From assembly GCA_025716815.1 (NCBI GenBank), contig JAIXMN010000005.1:310001-374000 (forward strand): DNA of 64,000 nucleotides. The letters are read 5' to 3'. Positions 13,121-50,233 of the stretch are shown here, in pieces; position 1 is the first letter of the stretch; the number at the start of each line of letters is the position of its first letter. The stretch is from Dichotomocladium elegans (Eukaryota > Mucoromycota > Mucoromycetes > Mucorales > Lichtheimiaceae). The notes below the pieces were generated by a model. That model had not been told where the DNA came from. It saw nothing but the letters and a program-made list of their open reading frames with translations, and searched no databases. Made by a program: the position numbers and the translations under genes.

Positions 13121-14110
13121 TCTGTGCTAATTATAGACATCGCTACGGATAGGAATGTCACAATAGGGCAAATTCTGTTTTCCATATATCCTGTTGAATG
13201 GCGGGAACTGAGAGATTTTGTAGCAAACGAAAAAATTATACACCATTTTTCAAAATCAAAGTCGCAGGATCGCAAAAATACAAATCGCATTTTTGTCCGG
13301 AAATCTTTACGCGTGATGACAAAGCAAAAGTAGCATACATACACGGAAAGATGTCGCAAATCCATCTCATCCTTATGACTCTTTCTCTTTATAAACTTTT
13401 ACATTTTGAAATGAGCAATCTATTATTTTACAACGATGGCCAAGGTCATGTCGCTGATGAGGAAATGTACTCACTTCAATCCGTTTGTTCTTACACTGAA
13501 TATCTGTGTAGCATATCGTGCAAAGATAACTCTGAGTTTACTCTCACACACATTCCCAAGCGAAAGGATACATACATTCGGATGAAAGAAGCGGGGATCA
13601 AGGGCAGTTACACAGCATACACTGATCAAGGCAAGGTCAGATGTTTCAAACTGGTGTTTGAGGAGGTATTGAGTGCATCAGCTGCAGCAAAACAGCTAGG
13701 ACTCCATGTTCGTTCAGCACAGCGATGGGCATTACAGTAAGAAAAGGACCCTGACAGCATTTTAAGAAACGTAGAAGCAGAGGGCCGATCGTGCATTCTC
13801 AATGAAGAGCATTTATTGTTCTAGAATGCAATTTTCGCTAAAAATAGCCGTACTCAAAAGAATCCTATATCGAGAAGACTAAGTTTATTCTTGGAAAGAA
13901 CAAAGAACTATGGGAGTGTGCTTTCTTTGTCAATGAGCCATTTAGCCTGGGGATTGTAACTCCGAAGCTGGTTATCAAATGGAATAATGAAGTAATGGCT
14001 TTCAGGAGACTCCTGTGTTCTCATTGTAATATTCAGAGAAATTATTCATTATGTACCTACACTTCCTGAACGTATGGATAAGGATGACAGCAGTGTCGTG
14101 TTTTGTTGTG
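13121..14110 (+). pseudogene. Decayed DDE transposase (IS630/Tc1-mariner-like), copy 1
   Basis: Contains a helix-turn-helix block typical of Mucoralean IS630/Tc1-like transposases: YTDQGKVRCFKLVFEEVLSA followed by SAAAKQLGLHVRSAQRW, then a stop. Beyond it, in shifted frames, come DSILRNVEAEGRSCILNEEH and a DDE-like patch with CAFFVNEPF, where a catalytic Asp would be expected and Asn is read. The segment 13291-13700 is clearly homologous to 35066-35480, including non-coding-like parts upstream of the HTH, so both are copies of one family. Multiple stops and frameshifts show it is dead. A Fanzor pseudogene follows directly in the same orientation. Confidence 0.75.
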
Positions 14111-14159
14111 TTGTAAGAGACTGAGAGAGTACGAAAAGAAATACAATCTTCCTATACTA

Positions 14160-16070
14160 CACAAGTGCCGGATATGTATCGGATTATTCTTGAGATGGTC
14201 TCTTGGAATTACTTGTTGGAATTGTTTGGGATTTCATTGTTGATTTCAGACCTCCCTCACGTCGATACAGTGGCCGCCCGTTATAGTGATACCCTCGGTT
14301 CCAGGAAATCGCATCACTATAATGAATTGGAATTACTGCTTACGTGAATAATGTCCACATGCGGTTCGGGCAACACCTTCGGCGTGTCATCAATGTCATC
14401 CTGAATCTTCGTCAGCGAAAAGCCGACCGCAAGCGAGAGTTAATCGCACAGGGCCTAAACCCCGATCAAGTACGCCAGGACCTTTATGAAACCATCACCC
14501 GGCATGCCACAGGATTCAAGCTAGCAATTGCCCGTCGAGGTGTTTTGAGGGAAGACATTAACGCCGAACCTGGATTTCTTCGGGAAGCATACGATATCCT
14601 ACAACCTGTCTTAAACGCTTACCCCCGAAACCACCAATTCCAACACCAGAGTATCTATTACGACGCCAAGGCCAATCCCGTTAAGCATTTCAACGCCTTC
14701 TTCCAGCTTGCACGCGTTTATCAACGGAACGGAATACGCGGATTCAACTGTTTTCCACTTCGTCGCTCGTGGTCACCATGCTACATGGAGATCGATACGA
14801 AAATCCTTTGCTACCATATCCTGGGCTGCAAAATGGAATCCCACACAAGCAATATGGAGTACTGGAGACGTGTTGTAAACCTGAAATCAAGAGCTTTCAA
14901 ACCCCAAGAATCCGAGCTGCTCCAATTCCGTGGGACTATTCACACTGACGGCGTCGGTGTTACTGTGTTCAAGAAGACAAATGGCCTTCAATCGGGTTTC
15001 GGACAGAGATTTGGCATCCAGAGCGAAGATATCGAATACGTCACCCCACAGATAATCCGGAACGAAGACTATAGAGGACAATGGGTCACCATTGATCCTG
15101 GCAGAAGGGACCTGTTGTATTGCGTTCATGAGAACTCGTCACCCGACAACCACCAGACCTTCCGATGTACAAAGCAGCTTCAAGATCATATACGGAAGAC
15201 CAAACGGTAACGCAGACTCCGAGAACGACTCAAGTTAGAGCGACCCGAGGTCGCGTTGGCTGAGCAGAATCTATCTCCGTGCCCAACTACGACGGATACC
15301 TCGCCGCCAAGAATCGGGTCTCTGTAGTTCTCAAGTCTTTCTACGCGACAACCACTACGAACCACCCGAACCCGCAATTTCTTTTTCGAAAACTTCGCCT
15401 GTCAGCGTTTTACAAGAAGCAGCAAGCAGATGAAAAGCTTCTCGACTCTTTGAATGCGAAGTTTGGCAGTAGGTCCGTTTTCGTGATGGGAAATTGATCT
15501 GCGCCGCATACAAGATATCACGAGCCTATCCGTGCTGTCGGCTTCCGGCGGCTGTTGAAGAAGAACAATTGCAATATTTATTTGATCGACGAGTACAAGA
15601 CAAGCAAGTGCTGCCCTGTATGTGACAATGAAAGCTTTGCTACCTTTAAAATGGTTCCTAATCCACGCCCATATCGACGGCCCGACAATCCGCTCACGAT
15701 CTGCCATGGCCTGCTACGGTATGAAGGACGGGCATGTTGTGTTATATTTCCAAAAGATTATAATACAGTATTTTGATGTTTCAATAGATGCACAAATCAA
15801 AACTGTACAGCAGGCATGGCAGAGGGTGTTTGTCAACCAAGGTTATGGAACCGGAATCTGGCGGCGGCTCTCAACATGCATCATATCCTCCGGGGTCTTC
15901 GGGAAGATGGTATCATCCCAGCAAGGTTTCAGAGAAGAAATGCTGCACAAGCATCCGCAGCTGGTGGAAGGCCACACTCACCTTAACCAGAGCAGCGCAG
16001 CGTGAGACTACGACGGGCAAGGCCAGGAAGGCCACGAGGTGCACGCTCTGGCGGGTCGAGACGACCGTAA
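14160..16070 (+). pseudogene. Fanzor (TnpB-like RuvC nuclease) pseudogene
   Basis: Fanzors are eukaryotic relatives of TnpB that cut DNA guided by a transposon-encoded RNA. Visible in order: YVNNVHMRFGQHLRRVINVI (helical N-terminal part, 14341 on), TIHTDGVGVTVF (~14937), RuvC-I VTIDPGRRDL (Asp codon 15094-15096), KLRLSAFYKKQQAD, RuvC-II patch YHEP (Glu codon 15522-15524), IDEYKTSKCCPVC with a second CxxxxC knuckle (CTNQNC), and the RuvC-III patch WNRNLAAALN, where the usual Asp is Asn (codon 15855-15857). The two knuckle halves join only if a 69-bp intron (15719-15787, GTATGA to AATAG) is removed. Lesions: TAA at 15208, a frameshift near 15260-15285, TGA at 15495 (Trp expected). It lies between a DDE remnant and a structured 3' segment. 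Confidence 0.8.
15719..15787 (+). other. Intron in the Fanzor pseudogene
   Basis: Donor GTATGA after codon bases CG, acceptor TTTCAATAG before A TGC ACA. Splicing restores HGLLRCTNQNC, the expected second half of the zinc knuckle. Unspliced, the frame meets a TGA at about 15774. Confidence 0.75.
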
Positions 16071-16165
16071 CCCCAACAAGAATTTTTCGCGTCAGTTATC
16101 GCTGACGCACCCAGGATAACCACAGCCCTTCGGGGCAAGCGCCCTTCCTTTGGAAGGACGGTGTG
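16015..16165 (+). ncRNA. Stem-loop cluster at Fanzor 3' end, candidate guide-RNA scaffold
   Basis: Five perfect small hairpins occur in 137 bp: GGCC/GGCC at 16021-16033; GGTCG-AGA-CGACC at 16054-16066; GCGTCAG-TTATCG-CTGACGC at 16089-16108; GCCC-TTCG-GGGC at 16125-16136 (a UUCG tetraloop if transcribed); CCTTCC-TTT-GGAAGG at 16143-16157. The stretch is GC-rich against AT-rich flanks. In TnpB and Fanzor systems the omega/fRNA scaffold overlaps the nuclease 3' end and runs to the transposon right end, exactly this position. The first two hairpins overlap the arginine-rich Fanzor C-terminal frame. Function is inference; no transcript evidence is available. Confidence 0.5.
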
Positions 16166-16227
16166 TTGTAAGTCAACGGGATTGGAGAAGGCGTAGTGTT
16201 TTCTGCTGACTAACAGGGTTTCATTCA

Positions 16228-16350
16228 TGGATGCGAAATCTTTTTACCTATTGATACGACAAATTTATATAATTCTATGCGACATTTTTCTTGTATTTTG
16301 CACGACATTATTTTATCTTGTTTACGACATTTATTTTTGAAAATAAAGTA
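16228..16350 (+). repeat. AT-rich terminal repeat of the transposon family, copy R1
   Basis: Shares AATCTTTTTACCT, ACGACAAAT and CATTTTTCTTGTATTTT with 37385-37460 in the same orientation, with internal deletions in the other copy. It contains three iterations of a ~22-bp unit starting CGACATT, like protein-binding iterons at a transposon end. It lies just downstream of the Fanzor 3' region and is interpreted as the right end of the element. Confidence 0.6.
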
Positions 16351-35008: not shown

Positions 35009-36600
35009 GTGGAAGAAGATATCGACGTGTCCATCTTTTTCATCATAATCACAAAAAGTGAGTCAGTTTTGTCCGTACATTTTTTACGCGTGATGGTAAA
35101 GCAAATGTCGCATGCATGGCAAAAGGCGTCGCACAAGAAAGCTTGGAAAATCCATCTCTATATGCATTTTACATTTGAAATGAGCAATTTATTTTACGAA
35201 GATGGGCAAGGGCATAACGCTAATGAGAATAGCGGTCTTGCACCTTTAGACTGTGCCGTTAACGAAGGAAATGCACTCTCCTCAATCCGCTTGTTATTAC
35301 ACGGAATATTTGCATAGTATATCTCGCTGACCTTGCTGCTACACATATCGTCAAGCGATAGGATATAGACATTCATATGGAAAACCAGATTTTAAGCTCT
35401 GGTACAACGGTGTACATCGACAAAGATAAGGTCAGCTTTTTCAAATTGATGTTTGAGAAGACCTTGAGTGCATCAGCTGCTGCAGAACGATGGGTGACAC
35501 AGTATGAAAAGGATCCTGACAGCATTGTTAGAAACATGGACGCATATATTGTTCAAGTATTCTCAATGAACCATAATAATGCTATTTTAGAACGGGTTTA
35601 TGAGAGTCAGTCAATTGTTCTAGAGAACTGATGGAGCAATTACTCCAGAGATTTGAAGGTATTAAAGTATTGAAAACGACGCTCCATTGTTTTATGAAAA
35701 ATGAATGTTCCCTTTCATTGGGAAAAGAACTCAGTTTCAGCCTGTAAATAAGAATGGTGATGCAAAGATACAAGAGCGCCTTGTTCGGGTGCGCTGATAG
35801 GATATGACTGCCATGAACTTTAGAAAAAATTATGCTTTTCTTTATGAGTCCAGATCCTACATTAACATGGAGCGCAACATGGCATCGCTGAAGAAATGGA
35901 CTTTTGCAGTAATTATAGTGCCAAAAACAAGGGTAAAATAACTACATCTTGTGAGCAATTTTGGCATAAGTCACCATTAAATGTACCTTGAGACTCCCAC
36001 AACCACCATCCCAAAAAAAGAGCGATGCAATCCGCAGCTGTAATAATGTCTTTATCGCAGAAACATATGTAAGTACCGATTATCACTTACATTAAAGAAT
36101 CGTATGAGCTTGAGGAAACAGGCAGACGAGATATGTGTGAAATTTCTGATGATATATGATTGTAGTTGATCACTGTATTTCAAATAGGCCGGGGTATTCT
36201 TACAATATATGATATCGCCATCTTATATAGCTTCATTAAGTACTGATCGACGTTACGTTCTGTAGATATACTGCTACAGTAGCTGCAAGCAAAGGAATTG
36301 TAGATGGAGTTTATCCCAATTTTTTAAGGCTATCATGGATAAAACGGAAAGTATGAACATATGAAATGCCATTATCTGGTAACGGATAATACACCTATCT
36401 ATAAAGCTGATGATTTTGATGCGCCTATCTTCCATCCTACTCACCTAAACTCAATCCTATTGAACAGTGTTGATCAGTTATGAAAGCAACGTAAAACGTA
36501 ATAGGGTTTTTGCAGAGTGAGACACTGATGATCCGGAATAATGAAGCCTGAAACGACGCTTCCGCCTTGAACGTAAGGATGGTCCTTGATCAAAGCGCTG
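35009..36600 (+). pseudogene. Decayed DDE transposase (IS630/Tc1-mariner-like), copy 2
   Basis: Same family as 13121-14110. In order: MHFTFEMSNLFYEDGQGH (matches copy 1), the HTH block DKDKVSFFKLMFEKTLSASA, EKDPDSIVRN, a VLKTTLHCFMKNECSLSL patch (HTH-to-catalytic linker), AFLYESRSYINMER where the second family motif normally reads DES, HYLVTDNTPI (DDE central Asp region, about 36365), and in another frame AYLPSYSPKLNPIEQ (about 36420) followed by a stop. Numerous stops and frame changes make it inactive. Unlike copy 1 the transposase region spans HTH to the last DDE motif, and no Fanzor follows. Confidence 0.75.
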
Positions 36601-37384
36601 CTTTTATTCCAAACATTCACTGTATGTTCCATATTCATTGAAATGCGTCATCGTAGTGTATATTACTATAGATAGACCGGTAGGCGAAGATCAAGGTACA
36701 TCGGTGGTTTCCTTACCTGACTGCTTCAAGGACGACAGTCAATTTGGATGTGCTATGATGACGATTGGTTATTACTTCTTCATCGAATCCATACTTGCTC
36801 TCTTCTATGAGTCGCCTGGTATGAATCTTTATATCAACTTCCTTTTTATTGACTTTAACAGCTTCTGTCCTATGTAGACCAACCAAGCGTACCGGTACTT
36901 GATAAGTCATGGAGGAGAGGTCAGAAGGATATCGGATCACTCAGTGATGTCCGCGATTTGGTTGGCTTTGTATAAGACTTGTCCCTTCTTTGACTGAGGG
37001 GCTGTTGCTTATGGCGTTCCCCGTGCCTGTCCCTGTCCTCACTTCGCTGTTGCTCATACGAGGTGCCCATCTATTTTTTCTTGTGATTGTCTCCTTGTCC
37101 CCGCGCTCACCACGCGTAATTTGCCGCTGACCCGTCTGTAACTTGCTGCATGCCCCTTTGTGTCAACAGCGTGCCCTCAGCCGTTGCTTTTGGCGTTCGA
37201 CTTTGCTTTGTGTCTGCCATGCGCATCCTCTGTTTCTGGCACTGCTTGTTGTTGCTCTTCTCGCTGCTCCTGGCTCACCAACCATCCTCCGCCATGTTAT
37301 CGCCACACGCATATCTTGATATACATGGTGAACCAGGTTGGTAAGTCACAGTGTCAAGGAGATAGTTTAATAGTTGCTGTTGCC
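36601..37384. other. Element interior or flank without a gene
   Basis: Lies between the copy-2 transposase and its terminal repeat. 37020-37340 is C/T-rich, unlike its AT-rich surroundings. No Fanzor-like motif found on either strand. Confidence 0.4.
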
Positions 37385-37460
37385 TAAGGCAATCTTTTTT
37401 ACCTGTTGGTACGACAAATCCATGTAACATTTTTCTTGTATTTTGGAAAATAAACCATAT
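37385..37460 (+). repeat. AT-rich terminal repeat, copy R2
   Basis: Homologous to 16228-16350 in the same orientation: shares AATCTTTTTTACCT, ACGACAAAT, ACATTTTTCTTGTATTTT and GAAAATAAA, but lacks the internal CGACATT iterations. Marks the right end of the copy-2 element. Confidence 0.6.
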
Positions 37461-41620: not shown

Positions 41621-44149
41621 GCTGCCCTTGCAATTTCAAATATATTGGTCATCATTTCCTTCAAACTTGGCTGTAAATCCTTAACAACCTCGGCTGCAAC
41701 AAAATGCAATGCGGTTGTGGATCGGTGTCGGTATTAGAGAAACGTACTATATACTCTTGGGTTAAATTAAGTATGACACTTGTTACACTCGAATATACAG
41801 GAATTTCGAAAATGTCTCTACGTTGTATGGTCATCGCGAGTTTGCCAATTGGCCCCGCAACATGACTTAGTACATTTTATCAAAAATTATGGGTTGTTTC
41901 GTCATGGCCGACAATGCCTATGCCACAAAATTAGAATAAGCATAAAAATGCAAGAGACACACCAACCTGCTGCCTGTCAGGTGGGCAAACCTGGTCCAGA
42001 AGCCCTATGAACTACACTGTCGTCTCGGGAGCGTATGTAGGACATAGTAAATGGCTTAGCTTCCTCTCATTGATACCTACCTGCTTCCCGCGCTAAGAAA
42101 AAAGCCCAAAGCCCTCAGATATCCTCCCTTACATGTTCAATTGACATCTGCATTTTGTAGGTGAACCACTCATAGGTGCAATCGAAGACTATTGGATCCA
42201 TGTCGTTGTAGGATCTCTCATATATTGGTCGTCGTCTGGTCGACACAACCCGATGCTTTGATTGCACTTGGTGAGATTGTCACAGGCTGTTGTACACAAC
42301 AGTATAGCACCACTACTTAACGCGAAATAAAGAAGAGCAGAAGAGGAACCCGCATCTATTGTATTCGTTACTTTCTCTGTTACTACCTCTGACTAAAGTT
42401 TTTGTCTCAAGCAAAAGCGTTAACCACTGAGGAAAGCCTACTGACGTAACCACGGAATTACTGAGAGCGCCCAACCCTGACTCGGCTATAACCCCCTTTC
42501 TAGGTTACATTGATTTGTTCTACTGTAGTTATTAGTATTTCAACTCATCGCGGCAAATCCAACATGACTATCCGCTCAGTCGTTAGATTTAATATAAATG
42601 CTCTTGTGTTGTTGTATTGTAATGAACAATATCTCTAATCTACTTGTCCCTACGCTGGCTAAAGGCCCATCCGCCGAGAAAAAGACGACATCATGCCGGA
42701 AATACTTTATTCTTCTAACCTCGATCCATAATTCCTTACGAAACATGGTACCACGCACGGTGGCAGCTTTCCATCATTTTGGCTTCTCGCTTCTAGAAAC
42801 CAAATTCCCTAGCGTATATAAACCCACGTGGTACTTGAAATAAGAAAAAAGGAACAATCTTCTACCAACCATTGCTTTGGCCTTACGTTGCAACCATCTT
42901 GGATAATGTCGTCTTTTGGGGTACCACGAAGGAAGGCTGGCGACGATCATGAAGAGAGTAACAAAAGACTGGGTCATCACAGAGAATATGTCACGTCGAG
43001 CGGGGAATCACGAAGTGAGTCAGCCACACAGGCAGTAACAAACTTAGAGAAGATATATGGTGGTGTATCGTCCTCTATTTATATTATTGTCTATTAGACT
43101 AATCGGCTGCGCACCGCGGTAGTCTGTTGTGGTGGTGACTGCTGTAAAAGGGGTGCGCATCAAGAAGTATGTCTGCGATCTCGAATTATTTTGTCGTGGC
43201 AAAGCCTTTCCGATCACACAGCACAATTAATTTTGTAAGCTCCTTTGGAAGTATAATACTACCATGTCCAAAAAAGGGATTATTCGAGAGTGTTCACCCC
43301 TTGCACTATAATACCCCTTTTAACTGCATTTCTTTCCACTCCACATTCATTGCTTGGACTACATTTATTAATTCTTAAGCCATAGTATTATGTCTATATG
43401 TTTATCCTGTTCACTGAAGAATCTAGGATAAGTACCCTAGCTGTTGTAATAATAAAAGGACATCATATATTTGTCCTCCTCTACATTCACTGCTCTGGTC
43501 ACGGTCTTTCCGCCAAAACATTTGAAATACTAGCGGCACTGACTATACGCACAGTCATTACCTCCTGTCTTTTGTGCGGACTACTAACGTCCCATTCTGG
43601 CTGTTACTGCCAATGGGTTGTCTGTTTGTTTGCTTCCCATTCTTCATAACTGTATTTCTCACATTATATTATTTATCATTATTATCCTCCCTTACCTTTC
43701 CCTTTTCTCTCTCTTCTCCGTGTATTATTATTAGGTAACAAAACAGTATATATATCCAAGTAGTTTCATGCAATAAACACCATCTATTAGTTACCCATGA
43801 TGTCGTCGCACAATACCCACATGTTCGATTAAGCATCCCTGCTGCGGCAACGACGTCCCTGACGTAATGCGCAGCAACTATGCATTACACACTTTTACTA
43901 CGCCACAGCCGCAGCTTGTCACCTTAATCAACTTCTTCATCCTCATATCCGCAGCAATACTCTCGCACACTTTTATCATTAGAAAACAGTATAAATGTAA
44001 CCCAACTTCTTTATCTAATAAAGGCATCTACTCTCTCGTCCTCTCACCGTCACCTTTGTGGTCATATCCTCTTCGTGGTTATACGCTCTCCGTGGTACTC
44101 TTTGCGGTCATCTTTCTACCGTGTTCAAGCAAAAGATAAAGACGACATT
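41621..44149. other. Long intergenic stretch, no gene found
   Basis: About 2.5 kb. Only short scattered frames without domains. A tRNA-like remnant on the minus strand at about 42350-42450 was judged too weak to call. Confidence 0.45.
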
Positions 44150-44240
44150 GATCGTTGCTATCGGCTATGGTGTAACCGCCAAAATATAAGCATGTCGTGC
44201 GTATATTTTGGCGGTTACACCGTAGCCAATAGCAACGATC
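44150..44240. repeat. 39-bp inverted repeat with 13-bp loop
   Basis: Left arm 44150-44188 and right arm 44202-44240 pair with two mismatches; arms begin GATCGTTGCTAT and run to AACCGCCAAAATATA. The loop is AGCATGTCGTGCG. It looks like a foldback/MITE core or a single hairpin. It lies ~325 bp downstream of the tRNA-Pro gene. Confidence 0.85.
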
Positions 44241-44563
44241 AAGCGTAACAGTAGAAGAAGAAGGGTAACGGATAGATGATGTTTATTGAATGGAACTACT
44301 TGGATATTTATACTGTTTTTATATCTAATAATAATCATGGAGGATAGAGAGAAAAGGGAAACAGACATGGGCTGTGCGTACATTGAGAGGGCTATTGTTA
44401 TTCGTGCACTTCTTGGAGAGGACTCTGAAAAGCGATAAAAATAAAAGAGTACATTTGACTGGTCAAGCAATTGTGCTATGACAAGCACAAGAACACAGTA
44501 AAATAACACGATTGATGAAATCGCTTTAATTTACGCGGTAAAGGTCATTGTTGACCATTAGAT

Positions 44564-44643: not shown

Positions 44644-44647
44644 ATTT
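44644..44647. repeat. Target-site duplication ATTT, left copy
   Basis: ATTT abuts the LTR at 44648 and is repeated at 50234-50237 after the other LTR. Confidence 0.6.
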
Positions 44648-45076
44648 TGTCGGTTTTCTTGTTTCCTAGTTGTCTTGTCTCTTTCCGCTTTTGTAATAAT
44701 ATCTTTATCCAGCCCAAAGAGTACTCAAACTAGCAGTAAACAAGAGGATATGCGCCGAGGAAGCCTTGATTTCAGGAGGAAGCGGAATATAAGAATAAGA
44801 GTAGATAGATTGACTGTTCTTTATTGTAGTAAAGGATACAGCTGATATTTATACTAATGTCTAAAGAAGATACTAGCAAAAGCTACTGATCGTGGAGCAA
44901 GTTCCAGAAGATGCCAGGAAGCGCCATGGCATTTTAGCTTCCGAAAGGCACGTGACAAGAGGGATGTCTGGGATCACGTGCTTCGAATTGAGAGCTTGGG
45001 TCGACCGGGATTCCTGGGCTTGAATCTTTGCCTTGATTTGGCAGTCCTGGAGCCAAAACTCCGTTCGTCCACGACA
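44648..45076 (-). repeat. 3' LTR
   Basis: 429 bp, starts TGTCGGTTTTC and ends CGTCCACGACA on the plus strand. The pol frame ends inside it (stop at 44974). Confidence 0.95.
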
Positions 45077-48000
45077 TTACTCCCTCCCGAAACACTTGTT
45101 CGTCTCTGAACAATGGCGGAATCGTGGTGACCAAAACTTGCAGACCGGTCAGTCAAATGGTCTTCGTCAACGGTGTTAGTAACAAGCTTGTCGACTTCGT
45201 CATTGTCAGGTGGTAGACCCATCTTGGAACGCCATTCGGCACGAGCAGTTGTAGGGTCAAACCATGGAGTTGCCGGCTCCGTGTCAAAGTTCACTTTTGC
45301 CAAACGATCAACATGTACCCAGGAAGCAAGTGGTTGTCCCTGTAAGGTCTCCAGCTTGTACGTTCCAAAGTCTTCATTCTTGGCGGTAACAACGTAAGGT
45401 CCTTTGTACTGGGGTTCCAAACCGTAGCGGCCTTCGTGTGTAAGCTTGACATAGTCACCGACATCAAAGTCAACAATGTTTAACGCCTTGTCCCATCGTT
45501 CCTTGTCCTTTTGTCCAACAGCCTGCATTCTTGCCGTAGCAGCAGCACGAGCGTGGTTCACCTTTTCCAATTCTTGAGCAGTCAATTCTGCCACAACTCG
45601 AGGGTCCTTGAGAGCTTCTTCCGAGATGTATGGGCGAAGGGGGTCACCTGGCAGTATTGGGTCTCTTCCATAGGTAAGGTAAAAGGGGCTGTATCCAGTA
45701 GTGGCATGTGTTCGGACACGGCAAGCAAATAAAGCAGCATCCAAGTAATCATCCCAAAGATGAAGGGCGCCATTTACATATTTGCGCAACATGGACTTCA
45801 GAGTACCATTCAAACGTTCGCACTTGCCATTGGTTCTCGGGTGAAAAGCAGATGTAAACTTGTGGGTAGTACCGATGCGCGTTGTATAATGGGATAACAC
45901 TTTGCTCATAAAGTTTGCACCGCGATCAGTGAGGATTTCCTTGGGACAGCCAAAACGCATCACAATCTCTTCGTACAGGAAGTCAGCTACAGCTTTACCA
46001 GACGCAACAGGAACAGCTCTTGCAATTGGATAGTTGGTCATGTAATCCACAGCAACTAGGATCCACCGGTTTCCACGAACAGTCTTCGGCAGTTCGCCAA
46101 TGAAGTCGAGGTGCCATCTTGAGAAAGCCGCAGGGACATCCAAAGGGTGCATGACATCATGATGAGCACGATCGCGTCTACTATTCATTTGACAAGCAGG
46201 ACAGGTAGACAACCAATCGCGGATGTCAGCACGCATAGTAGGCCACCAATAACGAAGATGCATCAAGTCGAATACAGTAGTCTTGCCGGCGTGTCCAAAT
46301 CCATCGTGAAATGTCTTGACTTTATCAGCACGAAGAGCAAATGGTAGATAACGAACTTCCTTGATAAGAGGATCACCGTCACCGGACTTCAGCTTGATCT
46401 TGCGATATACTTTACCATCACGCACCACGAAGTGTTCTTGCTCTTGGTCCAGGAAAGCAGTTACTTCCTTGGGCAAATCAGCAGGGCGAGAGACATAATA
46501 CAATGGCCAGTCTTGACGATGAGATTCCGGTAATACATTCATGCTTGCATAAAGGAATTGGGGTTCTAATGACGTATCATTGGGTGGGGCATCGTATGCT
46601 TTTCTTGAAAGGGCATCAGGAACACCGTTTTCCTTCCCAGGCTTGTACAGGATTTCAGGGTCGAAGAGTTCCAGTTCATTCATCCAGCGTGCAAGTCTAG
46701 GTGTGATTTTGGCTTGGGACCGCAAGTACTTCAGAGAATTATGATCGGTATAGATCTCATATTGACGTCCTTCCAGAAAACATCGCCACGTCCTTAATGC
46801 ATGCAATATAGACAACAGTTCGCGTTCTTGTGCCGGATAGTTTCTTTCTTGAGGGGACAACTTGCGGGATTCGTACGCTAGAGGATGCCATACACCAGTG
46901 TCATCGGGCTGTAATAATACAGCACCAACGCCGACATCTGATGCATCACATTCGACACGATAGGGCTTGCTAGGGTCGGGAGCTTGCAGCACAGGAGCAG
47001 TAGTCAACTTTTCCTTGATCAGATCGAAACTTGCTTGGCATCCGTCAGTCCATACGATAGGTCTCTTCTTGGGTCCAGAGCCTTTGGTCAAGTCGGTAAG
47101 GGGTGTCGCAATGCTCGCAAAAGATGGGATGAAACGCCGGTAATGTTGAGCTAGTCCAATAAATTGCCGGACCTCTTGGACATTGGTAGGTGGCTCCCAA
47201 TCTTGAATAGCTTTAAGCTTTCCCTCTGCCGGTTTGATCCCTTTGGCTGAAACACGGAATCCCAAGAACTCAACTTCCGTCTTACCAAACTCGCACTTTG
47301 ACATATTGGCATACAACCTGGCTTCCCGTAGTCGATCCAGTACCATCTTGACATGCTTGACATGTTCTTCTTCTGACTTGCTGAAAATCAATATGTCGTC
47401 GAGATACACCAGCGCAAAACGGTCGATATAGTCACCGAGTACTCGATTCATCAGGCTTTGAAAGGTAGGCGGAGCATTGCACAATCCGAAAGGCAGTACC
47501 AAAAATGAGAATTGTCCATAGCGGGTGTTGAAAGCCGTTTTAGGGACATCTTCATCCTTGATCCGAATTTGGTGATATCCCGACTTGAGATCTAAACTGG
47601 TGAAGTACAAGGCACCTTGTAGTCGTTCAAGGCATTCATCGATTCTTGGTAGTGGATGTTGATTCCGAATCGTCACCTTGTTCAATGCACGATAGTCAAT
47701 GCACATTCTCATACTGCCATCTTTCTTCTTGACAAAGAGTACTGGGGCTCCCCAAGGTGATACACTAGGCTTGATCAGGCCAAGTTTCAACAACTCATCC
47801 AATTGGCGGCGTAGTTCATCTAATTCCAAAGGAGACATCTTGAAAGGCGGTCTTGATATAGGTTTTGCATCTCCAGTGTCGATCACATGTTCCAGTTCCC
47901 TCTCAGGTGGCAATCCAGGTAATTCGGCACGAAAAACGTCGCTGTATTCATCCACCAATGCTTGTAAGGTAGGTGGGATATCCTTGGACTTGATTTCATT

Positions 48001-48678
48001 CTCCAACAAATGTAACATGTATACGGCTTCGACTTTGTTCTTGCGCACGGCTTTACCAACTTGTCGATGGGTCAACAAGTAACGCACACCAGATTCGCCC
48101 AAGTACCGCTCTGGTTCCAGCTTGTACTTCTTGCCATTCAAGACGATATTCCAGACATCAGTTTTCCAGTCTGCCTTTGGTGTGTATTCTGCCAGCCAAT
48201 TCCTTCCAAGGATTACGTCAAATTTGGTGTCTAGCACATATGCATCGACCTTCATATCACAACCGGATAGTGAGAATGGGAACGCCACCTTCTTGGAGAT
48301 CTTCAGTCTGTGTCCGCCAGCAGTTTCAACATCGCGCGCCACAATATCAATTTTATCCAAGTCCTTGCAAAACCTTGATGAAACATAACTTGCACTTGCA
48401 CCTGTATCGATCAGAGCCAAAATACGCTTTTTCCTTGTCATGCCACCATACAATGGTAACGATTCACCCGTGCAAGCGTTCAACTCTTCCAAGTGACAGC
48501 AATCTTCTCGCAGCTCTTTCTCCTCAGTGTGAGCATTTTGAACAGCATCATCACTGCGTTGGCCACCCACAGCTGCGTCCACCAATCCATCACTTGGAGT
48601 AACCTGCATGCCCTCAACATTAGTATCAGACGCTACAGAACTTTCCTTGCCTTGGTGGATAACATTGGCCAACCCCAC
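44974..48678 (-). CDS. pol: Pol polyprotein (protease, RT, RNase H, integrase)
   Basis: At least 1234 codons open. In order: aspartic protease [14 protein letters not shown]; reverse transcriptase with [13 protein letters not shown] and active site YLDD; RNase H ([23 protein letters not shown]); integrase zinc finger CPACQ, catalytic core with [23 protein letters not shown] and [19 protein letters not shown]-type module ([11 protein letters not shown]). No chromodomain is evident at the C-terminus, which extends into the 3' LTR. The frame is open upstream past the gag stop (48789) in the -1 frame relative to gag, so pol is probably made by -1 frameshifting rather than from the GTG at 48678; the true junction lies near 48790-48800 or above. 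Confidence 0.95.
45077..45088 (-). other. Polypurine tract
   Basis: Minus-strand GGGAGGGAGTAA directly before the 3' LTR; primes plus-strand DNA synthesis. Confidence 0.8.
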
Positions 48679-48788
48679 TGGAGAATCCTTTTCTTGTGGA
48701 CCCTTGTGAACAATCCCCTGATCCTCCAGCGACCGGTTTTGCTTCTTCTTAAGGGGAAGTTCATGGCTGCACGTACGTTTCCCCTTGC

Positions 48789-49703
48789 TTACGCACGTGC
48801 GTTGCCAAAATCCTGGCTTGATGATTGTGCTTGTGTTTGGTCATCGTTGTTGCTTCTTGGTTGTCGACATTCACGACGATAATGACCCATTCGACCGCAA
48901 CGGAAACAGCGAATACGTGAACGATTTGATTGTGCCGGGGAGAGAGCATCCAATTCCATAGGTGTTGGCTCAGAGGTAGTGTATGTGTTACGAGCAGCAC
49001 CATGATGGCCAAAACCAAAAGCAGGACGAGAATTGTGTAGACCGCGAGCCACTCGTTGAGCACTTTCGTATGATTCAGCCAGTTCGTACGCCTTGTGGAG
49101 AGTATCCGGTTTGTGGATCAGCACATGCAGCTTGACTTGATATTTTAGACCGTTGGTGAAAACAAACAGAGCATCCTTGACATCCATATTAGGTAGTTCG
49201 AGCATGATATCCCGGAAGGCACGGACGTAAGAAGACACCGAGCCACGCTGCTGTAACTCTTGAAGCTTTTGTCGAGCAATTTGTTCGGCATTTTCGGGCT
49301 TGAATTCTGTACGGAATGCATCGCAAAATTGTTGCCATGTTTGGGGGGTCGCCACATTTGTGTCGGACTCTAATTGACGCCACCAAGTAATAGCACCATC
49401 TCGAAGTAGAGCCACAGCAAACAGCACACGTTGATGATCATGGCGCATTTGCACCAATTCGCAATACTTTTCGATAGTGTACAACCAAGCATCGACCTTG
49501 CGCGAATTACGTTCACCGGAGAAAGTGTCAGGTTTGACAGGTCGGAGGGCTTGCAAAAGAGTCCGATTGTCTTCTTGTCCAGTGCCATGCATGAACTCGT
49601 CTTCCTGTGGGACTTGCTGTTGTCGTTGCAGTAGTTGTTGCAGTGACTGCATTACCGTCATCAGAGCTTGTTGCTCGAAGGTAAGACTGTTATCGGTGTC
49701 CAT
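48789..49703 (-). CDS. gag: Gag protein
   Basis: 304 aa. N-terminal Gln-rich segment ([16 protein letters not shown]), a capsid-type retrotransposon gag domain ([40 protein letters not shown]), and a C-terminal CCHC knuckle [14 protein letters not shown]. It forms the particle that holds RNA and Pol. The start ATG is 36 codons or more upstream of any conserved block and follows a ~80-nt leader after the primer-binding site. Confidence 0.93.
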
Positions 49704-49786
49704 GGTAAGTCAGTTGTCGGGTAGTAGTTCTTGTTAAGCAAAATAAAGTCGTATCCAATCTTGATCTTGTATTCAGTGGGAACGAA

Positions 49787-49802
49787 TGAGCATCAGCTAC
49801 CA
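49787..49802 (-). other. Primer-binding site
   Basis: Minus strand starts TGGTAGCTGATGCTC two bases inside the 5' LTR. The TGGTAGC start would pair with a tRNA 3' end GCTACCA, as in initiator tRNA-Met-primed elements; the primer tRNA itself is not in this window. Confidence 0.65.
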
Positions 49803-49804
49803 GT

Positions 49805-50233
49805 TGTCGGTTTTCTTGTTTCCTAGTTGTCTTGTCTCTTTCCGCTTTTGTAATAATATCTTTATCCAGCCCAAAGAGTACTCAAACTAGCAGTAAACAA
49901 GAGGATATGCGCCGAGGAAGCCTTGATTTCAGGAGGAAGCGGAATATAAGAATAAGAGTAGATAGATTGACTGTTCTTTATTGTAGTAAAGGATACAGCT
50001 GATATTTATACTAATGTCTAAAGAAGATACTAGCAAAAGCTACTGATCGTGGAGCAAGTTCCAGAAGATGCCAGGAAGCGCCATGGCATTTTAGCTTCCG
50101 AAAGGCACGTGACAAGAGGGATGTCTGGGATCACGTGCTTCGAATTGAGAGCTTGGGTCGACCGGGATTCCTGGGCTTGAATCTTTGCCTTGATTTGGCA
50201 GTCCTGGAGCCAAAACTCCGTTCGTCCACGACA
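49805..50233 (-). repeat. 5' LTR
   Basis: 429 bp, same sequence and boundaries as 44648-45076 by eye. Carries the promoter for the element. Confidence 0.95.

Follow-up and report, generated by a model that had tools for sequence, protein, structure and literature searches.

A Fanzor1 nuclease as the main cargo of a probably non-autonomous Tc1/mariner-type element in Dichotomocladium elegans

Layout of the element and its copies across the genome

The window, the whole stretch of 64,000 nucleotides analysed here, contains at positions 13241-16348 a deleted, 3.1-kb copy of a Tc1/mariner-type element flanked by TA, which we assign to family A. The limits of the full family A element are sharp and its surroundings unrelated in three copies read with their flanks. 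Relative to these, the window copy lacks a short piece close to the left end and about 0.8 kb including the N-terminus of the Fanzor. The features in the window are the following:

13237..13240, + strand: left flank TATA, composed of the conserved outer TA (13237-13238) and the TA target duplication (13239-13240)
13241..16348, + strand: the entire element as a family A copy of 3108 bp (three full copies: 3943-3945 bp)
13241..13265, + strand: left terminal inverted repeat, imperfect; 16/25 positions match the right end in the family
13411..13740, + strand: transposase remnant, N-terminal HTH, 109 aa, with a stop at its end and the DDE domain absent
14313..14334, + strand: junction of the internal deletion, about 0.8 kb relative to the full copies, with the Fanzor N-terminus gone
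14335..15718, + strand: Fanzor exon 1 relic from residue 153, interrupted by a stop (15208-15210) and by a frameshift near 15.27-15.32 kb
15719..15787, + strand: 69-nt intron within the zinc ribbon
15788..16070, + strand: Fanzor exon 2 relic with the second half of the zinc ribbon, the RD motif and an arginine-rich tail
16089..16108, + strand: hairpin of 7 bp whose loop UUAUCG is conserved, with covariation between families
16115..16120, + strand: GATAAC, complementary to the hairpin loop, a possible pseudoknot
16125..16136, + strand: second hairpin, with a UUCG loop
16324..16348, + strand: right terminal repeat, 23-25/25 identical among representatives of families A, B, C and C57
16349..16350, + strand: right TA target duplication
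35064..37457, + strand: separate Tc1 relic with transposase pieces and a right end, without Fanzor; limits approximate

The first-pass annotation had placed a Fanzor relic between an upstream DDE transposase relic and a structured segment with an end repeat. The Fanzor relic is confirmed (14335-16070, on the same strand as the transposase remnant); compared with an intact copy in the genome, its exon 1 parts show 94% and 96% identity. The structured segment is real and contains the covarying hairpin at 16089-16108. The upstream transposase relic is indeed present and of Tc1 type, but it is an N-terminal remnant only, with no DDE part in any of the four fully read copies. As for the limits, the right end at 16348 is followed by TA, so that 16350 was correct, whereas the left end lies at 13241 and not at 13121. 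Elsewhere in the window, positions 44647-50103 contain two identical 300-bp repeats and a 1288-aa open frame, which looks like a gypsy-type LTR retrotransposon; the identity of the repeats suggests a recent insertion. An inverted repeat with 73-nt arms, 88% complementary and 466 nt apart, lies at 43724-44335.

Searching the genome (39.4 Mb, 122 contigs) with the Fanzor stretch 14326-15210 gave at least 139 matches, other families and fragments included, a lower bound because 133 of 562 candidates were scored. The best matches are 98% identical and contain a 639-aa open exon. The upstream segment and the Fanzor occur together in all 30 best-scoring copies (the best 30 of the at least 139 matches). 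The right end was found in 29 of these, the exception being L023, and the left end in 28, as it is aberrant in L024 and was not seen in L029; among the left ends found, those of L019 and L021 have altered terminal bases and that of L020 is of another type. Many of the top copies are 98-99.5% identical along the whole element. No end-like sequence was seen between the modules or elsewhere inside the four fully read copies (three copies and that of the window).

These observations bear on whether two neighbours were mistaken for a single element. A Fanzor element that landed by chance inside a Tc1 relic would be compatible with the decay of both parts in the window, but with the same order in 30/30 best copies, common ends in most of them, and no internal ends in the four full copies, we consider the chance of such nesting to be virtually nil, and chance adjacency or nesting was rejected for family A. 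The joint occurrence of the modules between common ends thus indicates a composite element rather than a nested insertion, as had been proposed from the window, and the insertion boundaries that would separate the transposase relic from the Fanzor are absent from all four copies.

Two hallmarks of Tc1/mariner elements are present in family A, namely terminal inverted repeats, imperfect at 16/25, and a TA target duplication. The third, an encoded DDE transposase, is missing from the four fully read copies, and we therefore regard family A as non-autonomous, with the ends of a Tc1/mariner element. The window copy of this element is dead, and a Fanzor1 nuclease makes up the element's main cargo.

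Nuclease and transposase in family A and its relatives

When the 69-nt intron in the zinc ribbon is spliced out, the intact family A copy yields a protein of 709 residues, for which the closest solved structure is that of Parasitella parasitica Fanzor1 (PDB 9cf0; E 1.8e-129); Spizellomyces SpuFz1 (8gkh) is matched with E 5.5e-52. The Fanzor1 signature, given in the available part of its description as D-X(125-275)-[TS][TS]-X-X-C4 zinc finger-X(5-50)-RD (PMC3627910), is found at D401, TS 577-578, C617/C622, and RD 638-639. The TDG motif of the WED domain, a Fanzor1 feature (PMC10711439), is located at 351. The Pfam TNB domain is matched weakly, with 14 bits against a cut-off of 26.3. Among 8000 candidates scored, 183 relatives were retrieved at E<=0.001; of the 120 listed, those with a name are fungal, for example from Mucor, Rhizopus, Coemansia, and Syncephalis.

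The transposase remnant (match at 13408-13812) corresponds to residues 2-149 of a 433-residue Tc1 transposase with 71% identity. This reference, from contig C44, is intact and matches DDE_3 with E 1.4e-30. PF13358 (DDE_3) was found in relatives of family A, and no DDE match was obtained in the four fully read copies of family A itself, the window copy included. The frame of the 109-aa HTH remnant is intact in 19 of 24 aligned copies, with a pN/pS of 0.51 from few changes. Intact 475-aa transposase frames are present at C44 and C57 next to left ends similar to that of family A, with 21 of the 25 terminal bases in common. A 452-aa frame, 59% identical, occurs at two places on C31. At one of these (L087, C31:603700-607200), the intact frame is followed by a tandem array with a unit of about 21-24 bp (GATGTAGGACACTTGAGAAA..), and a second frame of equal length and score lies on the opposite strand about 6 kb away.

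The relatives differ in how the two genes are arranged. In family B, the Fanzor is in tandem with a degenerate transposase (residues 1-355); it is intact in the C79 copy (681 aa) and reads shorter in the C40 copy (601 aa). The C57 element (1657823-1664696, 6874 bp), of which a single complete copy was seen, combines an intact transposase with an intact 722-aa Fanzor on the opposite strand, and has a right end with the hairpin and flanks CATA and TA; a truncated relative is located at C44. Family C contains an inverted Fanzor fragment that ends near residue 366 in the five copies read, and has three relatives without Fanzor. The B and C57 Fanzors are 58% and 52% identical to that of family A over the parts compared. 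In the trees, the Fanzors of A and B are sisters (97/93) and the Fanzor-less copies group with family C (94/92, below the mark set by the tool); the order of the families was not resolved. Loss of the nuclease would have been demonstrated by a remnant of Fanzor exon 2 on the sense strand of the Fanzor-less copies. A candidate appeared convincing by eye at an intron junction but was rejected, the scores not exceeding those of shuffled sequence; one other stretch, beside L087, fell within the top 1% of shuffles.

The Tc1 relic near 35 kb had been regarded as a second copy of the same family lacking the nuclease, so that the window would contain a matched pair with and without Fanzor. Pieces of a Tc1 transposase, DDE parts among them, are indeed present, the right end at about 37439-37457 is decayed, and two Fanzor queries gave no match at E<0.01. 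The relic is related, with 79% identity over two short stretches, but the identity of its HTH to the sequences in the tree does not exceed 59%, so that it represents a distant Tc1 lineage rather than a sister copy, and the window holds no matched pair. The closer set of elements with and without Fanzor is family C, elsewhere in the genome.

The spliced Fanzor frame is intact, with 702-709 aa, in 18 of the 30 best copies of family A. Across the 28 usable copies, changes common to at least three copies comprise 10 non-synonymous and 25 synonymous ones (pN/pS 0.12), against 245 non-synonymous and 123 synonymous singletons (pN/pS 0.60); the ratio is 0.49 for all changes and 0.30 among intact copies alone. 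As judged from these substitutions, the Fanzor of family A is under purifying selection; the difference between shared and singleton changes implies that the nuclease is maintained by selection within an element that would have to be moved in trans. The pattern is the one expected if copies decay after landing while the spreading lineages retain a working nuclease. The Fanzor could instead be a passenger carried by Tc1 ends without effect on their spread, its intact appearance stemming from a recent burst, as the near identity of many top copies and the decay of individual ones might indicate. We find this unlikely, since the older, shared changes show the low ratio and since Fanzor frames are intact also in family B (the C79 copy) and in the C57 element.

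Right-end hairpin and insertion-site flanks

In the window copy, the 7-bp hairpin lies 241-260 nt inside the right end. The comparison of 13 distinct sequences, which represent families A, B, C, and C57, the relic near 35 kb, and one additional type, shows changes on both sides in six of the seven hairpin pairs; 89% of the cells pair, and none of 500 shuffles reaches the covariation score. The loop can pair with a downstream GATA in 11 sequences, C57 being absent from these, and no obvious partner was seen downstream of the C57 hairpin. A pattern of the right-end region has 127 matches in the genome and none with the reversed control. Across the four representatives (A, B, C, and C57), the right end is better conserved than the left in 6/6 comparisons, from which the internally deleted B copy at C40 was excluded.

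The hairpin might be part of a guide RNA for the Fanzor, or belong to the Tc1 right end, with a role in RNA processing, translation, or DNA structure. It is present with the Fanzor in tandem (A, B) or inverted (C57, C), and also where no Fanzor match lies inside the element (L080, L082, and L083; L080 has a weak 26-aa match, E 0.005, beyond its right end), and as it occurs irrespective of the orientation or presence of the Fanzor, it may be a property of the Tc1 end. No Rfam family matches it at E<=5, and splice-signal-like sequences follow it, as judged by eye. Its distance also counts against a guide RNA, as the hairpin starts 260 nt from the right end whereas the solved Fanzor1 guide RNAs in the accessible part of the literature measure 75-150 nt (PMC11423790). 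On the other hand, the hairpin adjoins a live Fanzor in families A and B, and its 7 bp equal those of stem-loop 1 in three solved Fanzor1 guide RNAs, according to the same portion of that source (PMC11423790). We give the Tc1-end explanation a chance just short of even. After the hairpins, at 16138-16215 and at the same place in relatives, GTAAGT is followed by TGACTAAC and AG, which by eye resembles a short intron within the 3' portion of the transcript.

The flanks of the insertions are asymmetric. Of 135 right-end matches, 100 were listed, and 97 of these have TA directly after the end; the pattern used excluded flanks with G at the ninth base. TA precedes the left end in 94 of 98 matches, with a pattern that does not cover left ends of the B type. 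To the left of this TA, a further TA or CA is present at 89 of the 94 left ends, so that the flank reads TATA or CATA. The mirror image is found on the right side in 44 of 97 cases (Fisher p 1e-14, the copies not being fully independent), and in the sequence of the window about 16% of TA occurrences have TA or CA before them. Within family A, where the asymmetry is weaker than across all ends and right flanks are T-rich too, the outer dinucleotide is TA at 22/22 left ends, compared with TA at 18/28 and TG at 5/28 right ends (p 0.0013 for TA). The nine right flanks of family C include no TA and one TG. A 4-bp TATA duplication was rejected because right flanks also read TATG, TACT, and others.

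Four of the five left-flank exceptions carry one common flank on four contigs and are probably one duplicated insertion. This flank, TCTGTA, occurs at C33:946.8 kb, C36:846.3 kb, C39:608.4 kb, and C121:11.1 kb; among the matches listed, three of the four left ends are close to a contig end (4.6-6 kb) and have the hairpin motif at a distance of about 1.2 kb. They may represent a short element without either gene, within a duplicated subtelomere. Two family A insertions (L047/L101 and L048/L102, at C79:56.9 kb and C53:258.7 kb) lack the left terminal CACC, and 6-7 bp of their right flank (TATAGC, TATAGCC) are repeated at the left, joined at a common CAT; their right ends belong to copies L019 and L021. 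Such ends may have been left behind by copy-based repair, or by an aberrant transposition.

The outer dinucleotide follows the subtype of the left end, being TA at 76 of 81 ends of the TTTTTC type and CA at 14 of 17 of the TTTTCC type; two B copies also have CA outside the left end. In L020, a family A Fanzor (97%) is combined with a left end of the TTTTCC (C57) type, flanked by CATA about 1.9 kb upstream, the intervening stretch having been read in part. This pairing points to the left end or its transposase, rather than the Fanzor, as what sets the dinucleotide. Ends or transposase parts have apparently been swapped between families at this locus (C79:411204-415076, with C79:410774-410803). 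The dinucleotide is likewise kept in copies without Fanzor, and Fanzor-less family C copies fall in the TATA group where the left end was read. A B copy at C40, inserted in another Tc1 relic, allows a comparison with the empty site, which fits target-sequence and TAM readings alike.

These observations would be accommodated if the transposase preferred its targets asymmetrically, or if the element itself carried the dinucleotide, with no relation to the Fanzor. Target preferences of Tc1/mariner transposases are usually symmetrical, which speaks against such a preference. The same feature is moreover reported for the Spu-1 system, which was tested biochemically, in the accessible text of its description (PMC10432273). 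With evidence on both sides, we see this explanation as nearly, though not quite, an even prospect. That TATA or CATA beside the empty site is a Fanzor recognition motif (TAM) is possible only.

Proposed mechanism and comparison with known systems

We propose that a transposase supplied by relatives with similar ends would cut and paste the family A element. An RNA made from the right end would serve as guide RNA, with host sequence past the right TA acting as the guide, and the Fanzor would cut chromosomes that still carry the empty site, so that repair from the filled copy would retain or add copies of the element. The use of TATA or CATA beside the empty site as the recognition motif is the least certain step. 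As a whole, we regard this explanation as somewhat favored. A broader version, in which Tc1 elements keep a right-end guide module irrespective of a tandem, inverted, or lost nuclease gene, share nuclease, guides, and transposase in trans, and persist where the TAM of the nuclease allows, is distinctly unlikely in our judgment; were it true, the 6.87-kb C57 element, with its intact transposase and opposite-strand nuclease, would be the autonomous form.

The benefit of Fanzors to their carrier elements was called unknown in 2023, in the part of that paper available (PMC10432273). The genome of D. elegans combines a recently spread family whose Fanzor is live and whose fully read copies lack a DDE transposase, a related element with both genes intact, relatives without the nuclease, and dozens of insertion sites, which makes the role of Fanzors for transposons testable. 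The predictions are that the guides equal the right flanks, that the transposase is supplied in trans and, if the flanks reflect the nuclease, that the TAM is TATA for family A and CATA for C57.

Elements of this kind are known. In 2013, Bao and Jurka described Mariner elements that carry Fanzor1, either together with a transposase or alone, and counted Fanzor1 families in Mucor, Rhizopus, and Phycomyces (PMC3627910, as far as accessible). Our literature search of openly licensed papers found no report on Fanzors of D. elegans. In the available text of the same study (PMC3627910), PGv-1, PUl-1, and PUl-4 resemble family A in having Fanzor1 between Mariner-type ends with TA duplications, PUl-4 carrying the Fanzor only. 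Compared with these, family A has an HTH transposase remnant, a high copy number, and measured selection, together with a relative in which the nuclease is inverted, and TATA/CATA left flanks. The closest solved protein, Parasitella parasitica Fanzor1, also stems from Mucorales, and its TAM is reported as ATN in the portion of the source at hand (PMC11423790); about 90 residues of the 9cf0 chain, lying between its two matched parts, stay unpaired when it is aligned to the family A Fanzor.

The accessible part of the work of Saito et al. 2023 (PMC10432273) provides the nearest parallel for the flanks. SpuFz1 recognizes the TAM CATA, and a CA is fixed just outside the left repeat of its element; Spu-1 is similar to family A in having terminal repeats around Fanzor1 and a fixed dinucleotide outside the left one. 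Elements without the protein occur there as well, as ghost loci of Spizellomyces for which help in trans was proposed. According to those authors, no transposase lies between the Spu-1 repeats, whereas here relatives in the same genome have an intact Tc1 transposase. The value of the present case is that a live nuclease, a lost transposase, a related intact transposase, and an asymmetry of the flanks are found in one genome.
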